45,242 bases of DNA from Candidatus Uhrbacteria bacterium. GTDB lineage: Bacteria > Patescibacteriota > Patescibacteriia > 2-12-FULL-60-25. Both the position numbers and the translations under genes were made by a program. Under the pieces are notes generated by a model. The model worked only from the letters and a program-made list of their open reading frames with translations, ran no database searches and was not told the origin of the DNA. Below are positions 2,472 through 37,644 of the stretch, in pieces (position 1 is the stretch's first letter; every line of letters begins with the position of its first letter). The stretch is from contig JAUSEV010000047.1 of assembly GCA_030649995.1 (NCBI GenBank), positions 1 to 45,242 on the forward strand, written 5' to 3'.

Positions 2472-2539
2472 TGGCAAAGACGCGTGATTGATTTTTGTCA
2501 GTCAATCGAAAATGAGACACATCAAACTCTAGCTATAGC

Positions 2540-3595
2540 GGGATAAAGAAAGAAATTCTGTGGTTCGTGAACTTATATACACCAGTGAATACGGGCGTAT
2601 TTGAGTGAATTCACATAGAGTTCGCGTGTTATGAAACATTTACACGTGAATACGAGGTGTTTGCATGCATCTATCGTCATCCATGGCCTGCGGCGCAGGC
2701 GATGCACCGCCTGCAGAAAAACATGGACGATACGCAAAAAGAAACAGGGAAGAAAACGGAAACGTCTCTCCAAAAATGTTTTATGCCGCTATCTTGCCGG
2801 GAAGTCCGTGCGTACCCCACCACATGTTTTGCGCGCCACAAGAGACCTCTTTGTTCGTACAACCCCTTGGCCTGACCTTACGGAGATCATCGGTCCTTGT
2901 GTACTGATCGTGGATGCGTTGCATATTCGTACATCCGTCTACACGGCGATTATTCATGTATTGCTTCTCAAGCCTATCCATGAAGAACGTGCCTTTATTC
3001 TTCCTTTCTGGACAGGAACCAAGACGGAAAGTAAAGACTCATGGCGCAGGGCATTTGAAGCACAGATACCTCCCATGCTCCGTTCCCGTATTAAAGCCTT
3101 AGTTTGTGACGGAAAATCAGGCCTTCCAGAACTCGCCCGCGAATATGGCTGGGTGGTCCAACGATGCCAATTTCATCTCATCGCGCGTCTCCAACTTAAA
3201 CGCTCGAAATATGCGCTTTCTCGTCATCGCAAGGAAGGTGTGAGACTCTATGAACTCGCAAGAACTATTTGTGATACAACGTCTCAAAGAAAACTACAAA
3301 AGGCTCTTCAAACCCTTTTGCGTATCGTTCGCTTGGAAAAGAATCGTCATTTGAAAACCATCCTTTCCGGACTCGTGAAACATCATCAAGATTATCGTAC
3401 CTACTTAGCGCATCCCGATCTTTGTCTTCCCACGACTACGAATTCTGTCGAAAGCCTGAATAGTCTCATTCGTGACCTCCTTTATCGCATGAGAGGTTGC
3501 AGAATATCAGATTCCGTTCTTTTGTGGATCGAAGCTCTTCTGAAATACCGATCACATATTCATATACAAAACCACAGAGATTAATCCTTTAACCC
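2540..3595 (+). mobile_element. IS256-type insertion sequence, 1056 bp, 8 bp target duplication
   Basis: The ends are imperfect inverted repeats of about 25 bp. Read inward the left tip begins GGGATAAAG and the right tip GGGTTAAAG, and both reach TCTGTGGT at the inner end. The element is flanked by 8 bp direct repeats GCTATAGC, the duplication size usual for the IS256 family. It carries a single full-length transposase gene with an intact DDE set, so it looks recent and potentially active. The insertion point is the dyad centre of a palindrome. Confidence 0.85.
2631..3584 (+). CDS. DDE transposase, IS256 family, zinc-binding variant
   Basis: The 317-residue transposase fills most of the element. 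The N-terminus has a basic zinc-ribbon-like segment (GLRRRRCTACRKTW), partly degenerate because only one of the two expected N-terminal cysteines is seen (CLHAS). Catalytic acidic positions are visible in VLIVDALHIRT, in ALVCDGKSGL and in TNSVESLNSLIRD. The C-x2-H motif (CQFH) between the second Asp and the Glu is typical of the IS256/MULE group. The start is fixed by an in-frame stop at 2616-2618. No frameshift is seen, so the enzyme is probably functional. Confidence 0.85.
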   Translation: MKHLHVNTRCLHASIVIHGLRRRRCTACRKTWTIRKKKQGRKRKRLSKNVLCRYLAGKSVRTPPHVLRATRDLFVRTTPWPDLTEIIGPCVLIVDALHIRTSVYTAIIHVLLLKPIHEERAFILPFWTGTKTESKDSWRRAFEAQIPPMLRSRIKALVCDGKSGLPELAREYGWVVQRCQFHLIARLQLKRSKYALSRHRKEGVRLYELARTICDTTSQRKLQKALQTLLRIVRLEKNRHLKTILSGLVKHHQDYRTYLAHPDLCLPTTTNSVESLNSLIRDLLYRMRGCRISDSVLLWIEALLKYRSHIHIQNHRD

Positions 3596-3618
3596 GCTAT
3601 AGCTAGAGTTTGATGTGT

Positions 3619-3877
3619 GTGGTTTTTAACAGTTAGGTTCAATACCTCGCCATCGCGGCGTCAGCCACCCACCTCCACCTCCACCTCCACCTCCACCTCC
3701 ACCTCCACCTCATCCTACCCTCTCACTGCCTACCGGCAAGCAGGTCTTATTAGGAGAGGGTTTTCCATGATTATTTCTGATAGTTTTTTTCGAAGGAGGC
3801 TTCGGCTATGAGTACATTTGACTTGATTTCATGTCGAAGGTCAGCCGAAACGGAATGAGAGGATATGGCGGGAAAAG
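3619..3877. repeat. Intergenic repeat region with hexamer microsatellite
   Basis: This gap holds no convincing gene. The segment 3671-3710 is a tandem hexamer (ACCTCC, about 6.7 copies). Downstream, ACCCTCTC and GAGAGGGT can pair around an inner CCTACCGGCAAGCAGG hairpin. At 3789-3850 pieces of a TTCGGCT/AGCCGAA inverted element recur that also appear near 8265 and inside murB (18126-18214). The short frame across the hexamer reads as a Thr/Ser-rich repeat and is not a plausible protein. Confidence 0.6.
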
Positions 3878-7631: not shown

Positions 7632-8230
7632 CTCAACTGTATCTTCTGCGCCATGGACATGTGGAAAATCCGCAGCAGGTTTTTTGTTCGGAAGGTTTTC
7701 CTTTGTCGGATCAGGGAGCTCAAGAGATTGTTCGACTCGCTCATGATTTTCAAACCGCAGACATTTCCATCAACGCGATTATTTCTTCGCCGTATTTGCG
7801 TACGCGAGAGACCGCGGAAATTATGGTGCAGGCCATGAATTTGCCGGAAGTCGTGTTTGATGATCGGTTAAAAGAGTGGCAGGTGGGGTCGTGGTTTGAT
7901 CGTCCGTTTACGGAATTTTATGCGGCGACAAAATACGATCAAGAACCTCCGCCGTCCGTACTTCCGTCGGAAGTAGAATCGTTACACGTGATGGCAGATC
8001 GCATGGTGTCCGCTATTCTGGAATATGAAAAACAGTTTCGCGGAAAATCTATTTTGATCGTTTCGCATCGTGAACCGTTGGTGACAGCGCTTTTGTCATT
8101 TCAACAAAAATCATTTGATGAAGTCCATCACGTCTCTTTCTCCATGGGCTCGGTGTGGAAACTCGAATTTGATGAAAAAGGCACTTTCATCAAAACAGAA
8201 AAAGTTTTTGATGAGAGTGGGGGAACGTAA
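7628..8230 (+). CDS. Histidine phosphatase (phosphoglycerate mutase-like)
   Basis: The 200-residue protein begins MTQLYLLRHGHVENP, the phospho-accepting RHG motif of the branch-2 histidine phosphatase superfamily (His9). Further expected parts are visible: SSPYLRTRETAEIM (substrate-binding Arg and helix), the acidic WQVGSWFDRPFTEF region and the second catalytic His in LIVSHREPLVTALL. The start is the ATG overlapping the preceding stop; the longer frame starting at 7595 would lie inside the upstream gene. The family removes phosphate from sugars, nucleotides or proteins; the substrate cannot be read from the sequence. It is the last gene of the unit starting at the helicase. Confidence 0.88.
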   Translation: MTQLYLLRHGHVENPQQVFCSEGFPLSDQGAQEIVRLAHDFQTADISINAIISSPYLRTRETAEIMVQAMNLPEVVFDDRLKEWQVGSWFDRPFTEFYAATKYDQEPPPSVLPSEVESLHVMADRMVSAILEYEKQFRGKSILIVSHREPLVTALLSFQQKSFDEVHHVSFSMGSVWKLEFDEKGTFIKTEKVFDESGGT

Positions 8231-8414
8231 CCTTCTCTTTTTAACTCCCCTAACCCCGTTTCGGCTGAGCTCACGGCCGAAGCCTCTTGTGTCAAGAGGG
8301 GGATCTGATTGAATTCGATTCCTCCTCTTAGCTTAAGAGGAGGTGAGGAGGAGTTAAAAGATAAAAGGGTTATGAGTCTGCGGAAAAGAAAAATTAAATT
8401 CCAATTGAGGTTTA
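8231..8414. terminator. Complex inverted-repeat region between convergent genes
   Basis: No gene is seen. The region can fold into several nested stems. The strongest is CCTCCTCTTA-GC-TTAAGAGGAGG near 8320-8345. Another pairs TTCGGC with GCCGAA around 8262-8282. A third pairs the outer TTTTTAACTCC (about 8238) with GGAGTTAAAAG (about 8352). It separates the plus-strand phosphatase from the minus-strand Nudix gene and likely terminates transcription from both sides. The TTCGGCTGAGCTC segment recurs in the repeat inside murB. Confidence 0.55.
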
Positions 8415-12203: not shown

Positions 12204-12243
12204 AAAACATCAAACTCTAGCTATAGCTAGAGTTTGATGTTTT
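12204..12243. terminator. Perfect 40 bp palindrome, probable bidirectional terminator
   Basis: A gap-free dyad of 40 bp has the layout AAAACATCAAAC-TCTAG-CTATAG-CTAGA-GTTTGATGTTTT. Flanking A and T runs give it the form of a Rho-independent terminator in both directions. It sits between the convergent DoxX and aminopeptidase genes. The central 34 bp equal the palindrome reconstructed at the IS256-type insertion site, and two related palindromes lie at 28699 and 37604. Confidence 0.8.
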
Positions 12244-28698: not shown

Positions 28699-28732
28699 TT
28701 TCAAACTATGCGCTATAGCGCATAGTTTGAAA
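28699..28732. terminator. Perfect 34 bp CTATAG-centred palindrome
   Basis: The layout is TTTCAAAC-TATGCG-CTATAG-CGCATA-GTTTGAAA with no mismatch. It lies 37 bp after the YraN stop, ahead of a convergent minus-strand gene, and can act as a two-way terminator. The outer CAAAC/GTTTG and central CTATAG match the palindromes at 12204 and 37604 and the IS-split one at 2517-3618; the six-base variable arms differ but are fully complementary. Confidence 0.75.
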
Positions 28733-35482: not shown

Positions 35483-36613
35483 ATGCGCGTCGTTCATCTC
35501 GCTTGCGTTGCTCCGCCTCAAATCGGCGGCATCGGAAGCGTGGCTTTGCGCGAAGTGACGCTTTTGCGCGCGCGAGGGGTGCAAGCCGAATTGATTGTGC
35601 CTTCGTTTGGATCTGGAGACACAACGCCCTCTCGCAGTTTCATGACTCGCGTTCCACCTTATTTCCGAATCGGTCATGCAGCGGCCCTGCCTCATATTGG
35701 GCGACTGGTGGAAGGAGCTGACGTTATCCATTTACATTATCCGTTTTATGGCACCGCCGAACCCTTGCTGTGGGGCACCCTGTCGGCTCCGGTCGTGATG
35801 ACGTTTCACATGGATGCGGTTGCGAGCGGACTCAAAGGGTTGGCTTTTGCTCTTCATCGTCGTTTGATTCAGCCCTCGCTTTTTTCATCGGTCGCGAAAA
35901 TGTTGGTTTCCTCATTTGACTACGCGCGCCACTCATCGCTTCAACCATGGTTCACCGCGAACCCATCGCGTGTTCGAGAAATTCCGTTTGGCGTTGATCT
36001 GGATTCTTTTTCCCCGGGCCCGGATGCCCGTCATCGTTTTCAGTTGCCGATCGGCGCGCCGACTTTGCTTTTTGTTGGCGGTTTGGATCAAGCTCATGCG
36101 TTTAAGGGTTTGACCGATCTTTTCCAAGCGTTTTGCCGGTTAGATTCTGCCGCGCATTTATTGATTGTAGGGGATGGTGATCTAAAATTCACGTATGAAG
36201 AACGGACGCGCGTTTTGGGTATCGCTTCTCGCGTACATTTTTTGGGTCGAGTGGATGATGAAACCTTGCGCGACGCGTATCGCGGTTCAGATGTATTGGT
36301 TTTGCCTTCGACTAACACAGCAGAAGCTTTCAGTCTTGTGGCGCTCGAAGCAGGGGCTTGCGGTACGCCGGTTATCGCTTCCGATCTGCCGGGCGTGCGC
36401 ACGGTCGTCCGTCACGGGGAAACGGGTTTGCTGGTGCCGCCGAAAGATCATGCAGCCTTAGTGTCGGCTCTGGAGCGACTTTTGTCGGATCGCGATCTCC
36501 GTCAAACATTAGGTCGGGCGGCGCATGATTTTGTCACGAAAAATTTTTCTTGGGATAAGCATGTGGACGAGTTGATTGAGGTCTATCAAGAAGTATGCGC
36601 ATTGCGGTTTTAA
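35483..36613 (+). CDS. GT4-family glycosyltransferase
   Basis: The 376-residue GT-B enzyme has VAPPQIGGIGSVALREVTLL at the acceptor-domain start, DVIHLHYPFYGTAEPLLW, and a donor domain with IPFGVDLDSF, LLFVGGLDQAHAFKGL, LIVGDGDLK and the E-x7-E motif in NTAEAFSLVALEAGACGTPV. It likely builds surface polysaccharide. It overlaps the next glycosyltransferase by 19 bp, so the two are coupled. Confidence 0.9.
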   Translation: MRVVHLACVAPPQIGGIGSVALREVTLLRARGVQAELIVPSFGSGDTTPSRSFMTRVPPYFRIGHAAALPHIGRLVEGADVIHLHYPFYGTAEPLLWGTLSAPVVMTFHMDAVASGLKGLAFALHRRLIQPSLFSSVAKMLVSSFDYARHSSLQPWFTANPSRVREIPFGVDLDSFSPGPDARHRFQLPIGAPTLLFVGGLDQAHAFKGLTDLFQAFCRLDSAAHLLIVGDGDLKFTYEERTRVLGIASRVHFLGRVDDETLRDAYRGSDVLVLPSTNTAEAFSLVALEAGACGTPVIASDLPGVRTVVRHGETGLLVPPKDHAALVSALERLLSDRDLRQTLGRAAHDFVTKNFSWDKHVDELIEVYQEVCALRF

Positions 36614-37644
36614 CGAATGATGATCCGCAGCACGCTCGCGGCGGTGCCGGACGGATCGCCGGATTGCAGATCGAGATGCTCCGTACCGCAGGTCATGAGG
36701 TGCGCGTGTGGTGTCCGAAAATTTTGTGGTTGGAAGAATCAAAGTGGCGGCGGCTCTACCATCACCTGAAAGATTTGTGCGCGCGATCGAATATCGTTGC
36801 GGAAATTCGTGATTGGAAGCCTGACGTTCTCGTCACGCACAATTTGACCGGATGTGGTTTTGGTTCACCGAGCGCCATCCAATCGCGGGAAGTCAGATGG
36901 ATACATGTGTTGCATGATGTGCAATTATTTGAGCCGTCCGGAAAAGTTTATGATGCAATGCGCATCACTTTTTGGCAACGTTTGTGGTCTTGCCTGCGCC
37001 GGAGATATTTCGGGACACCGAATCTTGTTTTGTCGCCGACACAATGGTTGATGATCGAGCACCAACGGCGCGGATTTTTTTTACACACACAAACAGAGGT
37101 TTTGCCAAATCCGGCTCCTCCCGTTGAGTTCGTTTCCCGTCAAACGCGCGATCCCTTCCGTTTACTTTTTGCGGGATGGATGACAAAAGAGAAGGGGAGC
37201 CATGTGCTTGATGAAATTGAGCGCGTCACGGGTTGGCAGATCGAAAAAGTGAGCGGTTTGGATCACGAAACGGTGATCAAAAAAATGAAGGAAGCGGATG
37301 TGCTGCTCGTCCCATCGCTCATCGCGGAAAATCAACCTACCGTGATTTTAGAAGCGGCCAGTGTTGGATTGCCCGTGATCGCCTCACGCATCGGCGGCAT
37401 TCTGGAAACCTTAAAAGATTATGCGTTTACTTGTTCATCGAGTGATGCTTATGAGTGGATTCGTGCGATGAAAACACTCAGAGACGAAAAGACGTATCAG
37501 ACAGCCGTCGCGCACATGTATCAACTCGCACAAGAACATGATCCGCGATCGTACGCCGAAAAGTTTTTGACACTGATGACCCCCAAAGGAAAAGAACGGA
37601 AAGAAATTTCAAACTTTTCCTATAGGAAAAGTTTGAAATTTTGA
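36595..37644 (+). CDS. GT4-family glycosyltransferase
   Basis: The 349-residue GT-B enzyme starts with MRIAVLTNDDPQHARGGAGR, with ARGGAG as the glycine-rich loop. It has DVLVTHNLTGCGFGSPSA, LSPTQWLMIEHQRRG, LLFAGWMTKEKGSHVL and the donor motif VPSLIAENQPTVILEAASVG. The last ten residues (SNFSYRKSLK and F) are encoded entirely by the 38 bp palindrome at 37604-37641, so the natural end of the protein was probably rebuilt by that element. It shares a 19 bp overlap with the upstream glycosyltransferase. Confidence 0.88.
   Translation: MRIAVLTNDDPQHARGGAGRIAGLQIEMLRTAGHEVRVWCPKILWLEESKWRRLYHHLKDLCARSNIVAEIRDWKPDVLVTHNLTGCGFGSPSAIQSREVRWIHVLHDVQLFEPSGKVYDAMRITFWQRLWSCLRRRYFGTPNLVLSPTQWLMIEHQRRGFFLHTQTEVLPNPAPPVEFVSRQTRDPFRLLFAGWMTKEKGSHVLDEIERVTGWQIEKVSGLDHETVIKKMKEADVLLVPSLIAENQPTVILEAASVGLPVIASRIGGILETLKDYAFTCSSSDAYEWIRAMKTLRDEKTYQTAVAHMYQLAQEHDPRSYAEKFLTLMTPKGKERKEISNFSYRKSLKF
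37604..37641. terminator. Perfect 38 bp CTATAG-centred palindrome at the end of a coding region
   Basis: The layout is AAATTTCAAAC-TTTTC-CTATAG-GAAAA-GTTTGAAATTT, and TGA follows immediately as the stop of the glycosyltransferase. It lies between convergent genes like its relatives at 12204 and 28699. The conserved frame is CAAAC...CTATAG...GTTTG with different five-base arms. Confidence 0.75.

Follow-up and report, generated by a model that had tools for sequence, protein, structure and literature searches.

Insertion at the axis of palindromes by an IS256-related lineage in Patescibacteria, and the Cas2-like genes that such palindromes bracket

Results and Discussion

The insertion sequence at 2540–3595 of the analysed DNA (hereafter the window, a stretch of 45,242 nucleotides from a Candidatus Uhrbacteria contig) splits a perfect palindrome exactly at its two-fold axis, and its closest relatives in other genomes occupy the same position in palindromes of unrelated sequence. 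Very probably, this is a recent simple insertion by an IS256-related lineage that targets perfect palindromes at their two-fold axis and parasitises the REP-like dyads of genes encoding Cas2-like proteins.

The insertion sequence and the palindrome it splits

The element (1,056 bp, plus strand) is delimited by an 8-bp target duplication and terminal inverted repeats and occurs once in its own 1.08-Mb genome. The left repeat GGGATAAAG (2540–2548, plus strand) and the right repeat GGGTTAAAG (3587–3595, minus strand; the last 9 bp of the element read CTTTAACCC on the plus strand) are 9 bp long and match at eight of nine positions. The only open reading frame inside the element (2631–3584, plus strand) encodes a Mutator-type DDE transposase of 317 amino acids with an N-terminal zinc finger, assigned on the basis of PF00872, the NCBIfam IS256 scores and a family alignment. 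Residues 120–282 passed the gathering score of PF00872 (Transposase_mut; 25.3 bits vs. 21), whereas the scores against the NCBIfam IS256 models NF033543 (44.9 bits) and NF048019 (29.5 bits) were far below the cut-offs of 150; therefore, the transposase was classified as IS256-related only. D95, D160 and E274, together with Q177, C179 and H182 (Q-x-C-x2-H), were invariant in the alignment of 10 relatives. The combination of D-D-E with C-x2-H is the signature of IS256/MULE transposases. The element thus shares with IS256/Mutator-type transposases (PF00872, NF033543 and NF048019) the PF00872 match, these residues, short inverted repeats, a single open reading frame and a target duplication of 8 bp, a length also found in most relatives and within the 8–9 bp characteristic of the IS256 family. 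In contrast to those transposases, the protein is shorter, carries an N-terminal CxxC zinc finger and falls far below the NCBIfam cut-offs, and the relatives of the element were met in Patescibacteria only.

The duplicated octamer GCTATAGC is self-complementary and is located at 2532–2539 and 3596–3603, flanked by the left arm ACACATCAAACTCTA (2517–2531, plus strand) and the right arm TAGAGTTTGATGTGT (3604–3618, plus strand) of the split palindrome. Joining the flanks without one duplicate yielded ACACATCAAACTCTAGCTA followed directly by TAGCTAGAGTTTGATGTGT, a perfect 38-bp dyad with a half-length of 19 and with the duplication centred on its axis; the central 34 bp are identical to 12207–12240. 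The sequence and this reconstruction bear out an earlier note on this DNA, which had placed an IS256-type element exactly at a dyad centre formed by the self-complementary duplication and had stated that excision of the element and one duplicate restores a perfect dyad with this central identity. Its statement that random insertion would rarely hit the exact centre also held: perfect dyad centres with a half-length of at least 9 accounted for 4 of ca. 45,200 window positions (8.8 × 10−5), i.e., about 9 in 100,000. The octamer itself occurred four times in the window against an expectation of 0.14.

Alternatively, the palindrome arms might be part of the element, which would then possess terminal inverted repeats of ca. 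32 bp comprising the arms and GCTATAGC, with no pre-existing palindrome; a naive inverted-repeat search indeed returned ACACATCAAACTCTAGCTATAGCGGGATAAAG at both ends. However, the same palindrome is present without the insertion sequence at 12204–12243, where it lies between convergent genes, and elsewhere, and three intact IS-free copies of the split palindrome were found in another host genome, G736. In the relatives, moreover, the arms are wholly different and the inner GGGATR-type ends are kept. The IS-free copies refute this reading, which we regard as extremely improbable. An empty site was also sought in genomes of the same genus, and the MFS and helicase neighbours were found in G002 with neither an insertion sequence nor a dyad between them. 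The gene lying between these neighbours differs in G002 and the identity is only ca. 71%; thus, this locus is not a clean empty site.

Target sites of related elements

With no second copy of the element in the genome that carries it, the generality of its target choice was tested on relatives from elsewhere. A contig scan with the single transposase as the query detected no relatives, whereas a scan of ca. 85,000 prokaryotic species with the alignment as the query yielded 18 loci. Relatives were found solely in Patescibacteria (19 of the 381 genomes of the class), and searches of the plasmid collection and IMG/VR returned no relative of the insertion sequence. Their sites were rebuilt from the inverted repeats and duplications.

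All five elements with intact sites, comprising the window clade of four and L058, were intergenic and lay at the exact axis of a perfect palindrome. These sites represent five genomes with one site each. The half-length was 19 in the window (duplication GCTATAGC), 12 in L054 of a Peregrinibacterium (GCCCGGGC, with one change in the left duplicate), 18 in L055 of a Brennerbacterium (GACGCGTC), at least 9 in L056 of a Kerfeldbacterium, where the contig stops (CCAGCTGG), and 22 in L058 of bin E14.210 (ACATATGT). Insertion at the exact axis is thus a property of the lineage and not of the window copy alone. Coincidence could be invoked for one insertion in one genome, but a chance of about 9 × 10−5 per site, repeated in five genomes, leaves that explanation virtually no probability, and it is refuted by the relatives.

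The five palindromes have no sequence in common, which indicates that the target is dyad geometry rather than CTATAG. The earlier note had considered the CTATAG core as a feature recognised by the transposase and had proposed looking for a CTATAG-centred palindrome at each rebuilt site; palindromes were recovered but CTATAG was not, the centres in L054, L055, L056 and L058 being CCCGGG, ACGCGT, CAGCTG and CATATG, respectively. Recognition of this core would accord with the window target GCTATAGC and with CCTATCGG in a decayed relative in genome G024 (L070, 38% identical), where the middle of an imperfect dyad (6 of 10 central pairs) is occupied by the duplication CCTATCGG/CCTATCGA. Given the four other centres, a CTATAG-reading transposase is very unlikely; the idea is refuted for the lineage and tenable only as a recent specialisation of the window element.

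In the phylogenetic tree, the window element and its three closest relatives (L054, L055 and L056) formed a clade with 100/99 support. L058 fell outside this clade, so that axis targeting is either older and was partly lost or arose twice. A more distant supported clade (L063, L064 and L071) duplicates a AAAAATTT-type sequence, and the remaining distant relatives are located in quasi-dyads or non-dyad targets. Axis targeting is therefore a trait of the lineage and not of the whole family. The earlier note had named copies of the element in non-palindromic targets as evidence against its proposal; such targets were encountered among the distant relatives (AAAAATTT or other non-dyad targets), whereas those of the window clade and L058 were palindromic throughout. 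The suggestion in the same note that the palindromes provide a safe landing site at gene ends fits some of the sites, but further ones were located 5′ of a gene or between genes in tandem.

As a separate observation, the site of L068 reads ATGAAAAAATTT and is located at the start of an apparent signal-peptide gene. With AAAAATTT-type targets in L063, L064, L068 and L071, this clade of insertion sequences may target the first codons of genes for secreted proteins.

Palindromes and Cas2-like genes in the host genome

The motif CAAACT..CTATAG..AGTTTG occurred 16 times in the genome carrying the window element and not once when the pattern was read backwards as a control. Three pairs of dyads spaced 680–800 bp apart each bracket one gene of the same family, the product of which combines a winged helix and a PaaX_M (Cas2-like) domain with a hydrophobic segment at the N-terminus. 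The genome has six PaaX_M genes, all of which have dyads on both sides; the dyad is the same on the two sides in five, and in the sixth (L027) the core and inner arm alone are common. Arms of the solo dyads correspond to particular paralogues, namely ACATCAAACTC to L026, GAGACAAACTC to L028, TTTTCC to L024, and GTGCGC or ATGCGC to L025. The palindrome split by the insertion sequence is of the L026 type, as is the intact solo dyad at 12204–12243 (contig C41 for the paralogue). Two further solo dyads are located in the window, one with ATGCGC arms at 28699–28732, near the type of the C4 paralogue L025 (GTGCGC), and one with TTTTCC arms at 37604–37641, of the type of the C17 paralogue L024. Since the palindromes constitute a REP-like family bracketing Cas2-like genes, the element parasitises an existing palindromic repeat system, similar to the REP-specific insertion sequences of proteobacteria.

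Several features of individual dyads were also observed. The dyad at 37604–37641 overlaps the 3′ end of the open reading frame at 36595–37644, the last residues of which before the TGA are encoded by the dyad (37604–37644); a palindrome has apparently been turned into the C-terminal end of this gene. The solo dyads L002 and L011, both of the GAGACAAACTC type, lie between apparently divergent open reading frames in an operator-like position, most other solo dyads being located between convergent genes. In L002, L010, L012, L015 and other dyads, the symmetry often extends outward past the shared core in a copy-specific manner (e.g., AAAACAT/ATGTTTT vs. GACACAT/ATGTGTC), a pattern suggestive of mutual correction of the arms or of insertion of the dyads into older palindromes.

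Targets of the insertion sequences compared with dyads of PaaX_M genes

Six hosts of the insertion sequences were examined, comprising the five with axis sites and G024, and PaaX_M genes were present in four of them. The target resembled a PaaX_M-gene dyad in all four; the resemblance was clear in two genomes and approximate in the other two. For the window element, this dyad is that of L026. The G736 element is inserted in GTTACC(G)TTAGTGTACATATGTACACTAA(C)GGTAAC, the dyad that brackets L087 and has one additional solo copy. In G735, the match is limited to the inner 10–12 bp: a solo dyad also contains the inner GTCCAGCTGGAC, and GGTCCAGCTGGACC stands beside the gene L083; a copy of TCCAGCTGGA is present there without an insertion sequence. 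In G024, where the insertion sequence is decayed and the dyad imperfect, the core CCGATAGG recurs beside L096, L098 and L102. On contig C9 of G024 (L019, L043 and L070), the intergenic DNA that holds the decayed relative adjoins a PaaX_M gene, and the dyad of this gene is not of the same type as the target of the insertion sequence.

The remaining two hosts, G733 and G734, had no detectable PaaX_M gene even when searched with the family alignment, and their palindromes may be ordinary terminators. The Cas2-like protein is therefore not needed for insertion, a good palindrome being enough, which favours recognition of the dyad itself.

These two genomes also bear on the possibility that the insertion sequences generally target intrinsic transcription terminators, the Cas2-linked dyads being merely the best palindromes available. 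The L054 target AAAAGTGTGCCCGGGCACACTTTTT resembles a bidirectional terminator, and T runs follow several dyads that are flanked by convergent genes. Terminator-targeting insertion sequences are known in other families. However, several dyads lack a T run or are located between divergent or tandem genes (L002 and L013), and typical terminators are looped, whereas all five targets are loopless down to the central base pair. Although terminators as the general target thus remain a plausible explanation, we consider this the less probable one and favour targeting of the perfect dyad.

Generality of the linkage between dyads and Cas2-like genes

Of 286 genomes of the class, 51 carried PF20803 genes, and as many as 10 of these genes were present in one genome. 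Among 34 PaaX_M genes of an independent set whose flanks were usable, 25 shared a dyad-like segment (score of 14 or more) between the two flanks; the corresponding control values were 4 of 257 for mismatched flank pairs from different genomes and 1 of 58 for unrelated genes. REP/RAYT-like systems are marked by a gene that has its own palindrome on both sides and by solo copies of the palindrome at other loci. The bracketing was seen in 6/6 genes of the host genome and 25/34 of the test set, and the solo copies were seen in the host genome. Frequent dyad centres were CGATCG, CGACCG, CGGCCG, CTATAG and CCATGG. The median distance from the end of the upstream dyad to the start codon was 27.5 bp, and the dyad abuts the ATG in places; given this proximity, the upstream dyad probably overlaps the promoter. 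An excess of −10 boxes at the upstream dyad (20 vs. 9, p = 0.06) was suggestive only.

When the units were compared among three genomes belonging to one genus, no flanking genes were in common except for one weak GTPase-like match. Neither of the orthologous regions examined carries a dyad, and at ca. 70% DNA identity no clean empty site was obtained. The non-shared flanks are compatible with mobility of the unit but are not proof of it. No relative of the Cas2-like protein was found in IMG/VR.

The AlphaFold2 model of the Cas2-like protein had a mean pLDDT of 80, with a weak N-terminal third. Its best structural match was Escherichia coli PaaX (Foldseek, 1.1 × 10−7), with Cas2 matching over the C-terminal domain. 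E. coli PaaX (PDB 8a39) and Cas2 are the closest known proteins in both sequence and fold, the common architecture being a winged helix N-terminal to a Cas2-like ferredoxin domain. Compared with E. coli PaaX, the Patescibacteria protein is shorter, has an additional hydrophobic N-terminal segment, perhaps serving as a membrane anchor, and lacks the PaaX C-terminal domain. Scores against the PaaX_trns_reg equivalog (38–50 bits) were below the cut-off of 264.55, whereas those against the Cas2 profile TIGR01573 (26.9–33.8 bits) exceeded the cut-off of 24.5 over ca. 37 residues, although PaaX_M scored better. F107, D108, R117, Q133 and S135 are invariant, and these include the aspartate of FD[IV]PE; judging from these residues, the position of the Cas2 metal-site aspartate may be kept. 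Profile searches with the protein returned PF20803 PaaX_M and Cas2 matches only and none to an HUH/Y1 tyrosine transposase, and the fold was likewise that of PaaX and Cas2.

Possible mechanism and comparison with known systems

Because the five targets share symmetry but no sequence, the transposase probably recognises an extruded or hairpin-like dyad rather than a sequence motif. A symmetric transposase–DNA complex would then cut the two strands across the axis with a symmetric 8-bp stagger. As for the Cas2-like protein, the gene of each paralogue is flanked on either side by a dyad of its own, which also has solo copies at other places in the genome. The protein is inferred to bind its dyad and to repress its own promoter. 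It is possible that the protein is an autoregulator whose operators were copied around. A bolder proposal, which we advance only tentatively and consider rather unlikely, is that a Cas2/PaaX-like protein, instead of an HUH transposase, copies or moves its cognate palindromes and that the insertion sequence lineage uses these loopless dyads as structure-defined, sequence-independent landing sites.

Targeting of REP palindromes by insertion sequences, including their axis, is already known. Elements of the IS3, IS110 and IS4 families split REPs (IS1397, ISKpn1, ISPsy8, ISPa11, ISPpu9, ISPpu10, ISRm22 and ISRm19; Tobes and Pareja 2006, PMC1525189), and the insertion point of ISRm22 (IS4 family) is the axis of palindromy of the REP (PMC1525189). 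The remark in the earlier note that some other families target palindromes is therefore supported, with axis insertion itself documented for ISRm22. Its view that such targeting is unusual for IS256-type elements was only partly right, since five of seven copies of ISRm5 (IS256 family, Sinorhizobium meliloti) have been reported with REPs; this association is of type 2, i.e., near or adjacent to the REP without splitting it (PMC1525189, Table 2). ISRm5 thus resembles the present lineage as an IS256-family element linked to REPs but differs in not being inserted at the axis.

REP-specific insertion sequences resemble the present lineage in that both interrupt repeated extragenic palindromes at a constant position and generate a short target duplication. 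The fixed internal position characteristic of type 1 REP targeting was seen at all five axis sites, and the target is repeated in the genome carrying the window element, in G736 and in G735. Several copies within one genome, all in REPs, are a further type 1 trait; here, the element is a single copy and the comparison was made across genomes. In contrast to the proteobacterial REPs with their conserved sequence, the palindromes targeted by this IS256-related lineage vary in sequence by genome, the perfect dyad alone being constant, and the protein associated with the repeats is Cas2-like and not of the HUH type. The dyad–gene sets share with the REP/RAYT (TnpA-REP) system the scattered intergenic palindromes, a cognate gene with these palindromes on both sides and several paralogue–dyad sets per genome; the product, however, is a PaaX_M/Cas2-like winged-helix protein and not a Y1 HUH transposase, and each set has ca. 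5 copies as opposed to > 100.

Two aspects appear to be new, namely an IS256-related lineage with sequence-independent axis targeting, so far found in Patescibacteria only, and a Cas2-like protein paired with its own palindromes. No description of this clade of insertion sequences, or of a Cas2-like/PaaX pairing with palindromes or in Patescibacteria, was found in the open-licence literature, an absence that is weak evidence given this coverage. Since the targets of this DDE transposase lineage have symmetry in common but not sequence, the recognition of DNA structure by an IS256-type transposase becomes directly testable. The occurrence of Cas2-like proteins with their own palindromes outside CRISPR is widespread but patchy, as judged from the 51 of 286 genomes carrying the gene family, and it bears on how Cas2-like domains entered CRISPR adaptation and on the role of palindromic repeats in minimal genomes. 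Together, axis-inserting elements and the palindromes of Cas2-like genes point to a little-explored two-layer system of mobile DNA.

Two other repeats were observed in the window. A run of CCACCT hexamers is located at 3668–3712, just 3′ of the split palindrome. A dispersed repeat at 8227–8376 includes a stretch of ca. 58 bp (8317–8374) with CCTCCTCTTAGCTTAAGAGGAGG, of which about ten copies with 86%–97% identity are present in G001, a genome of the same genus.
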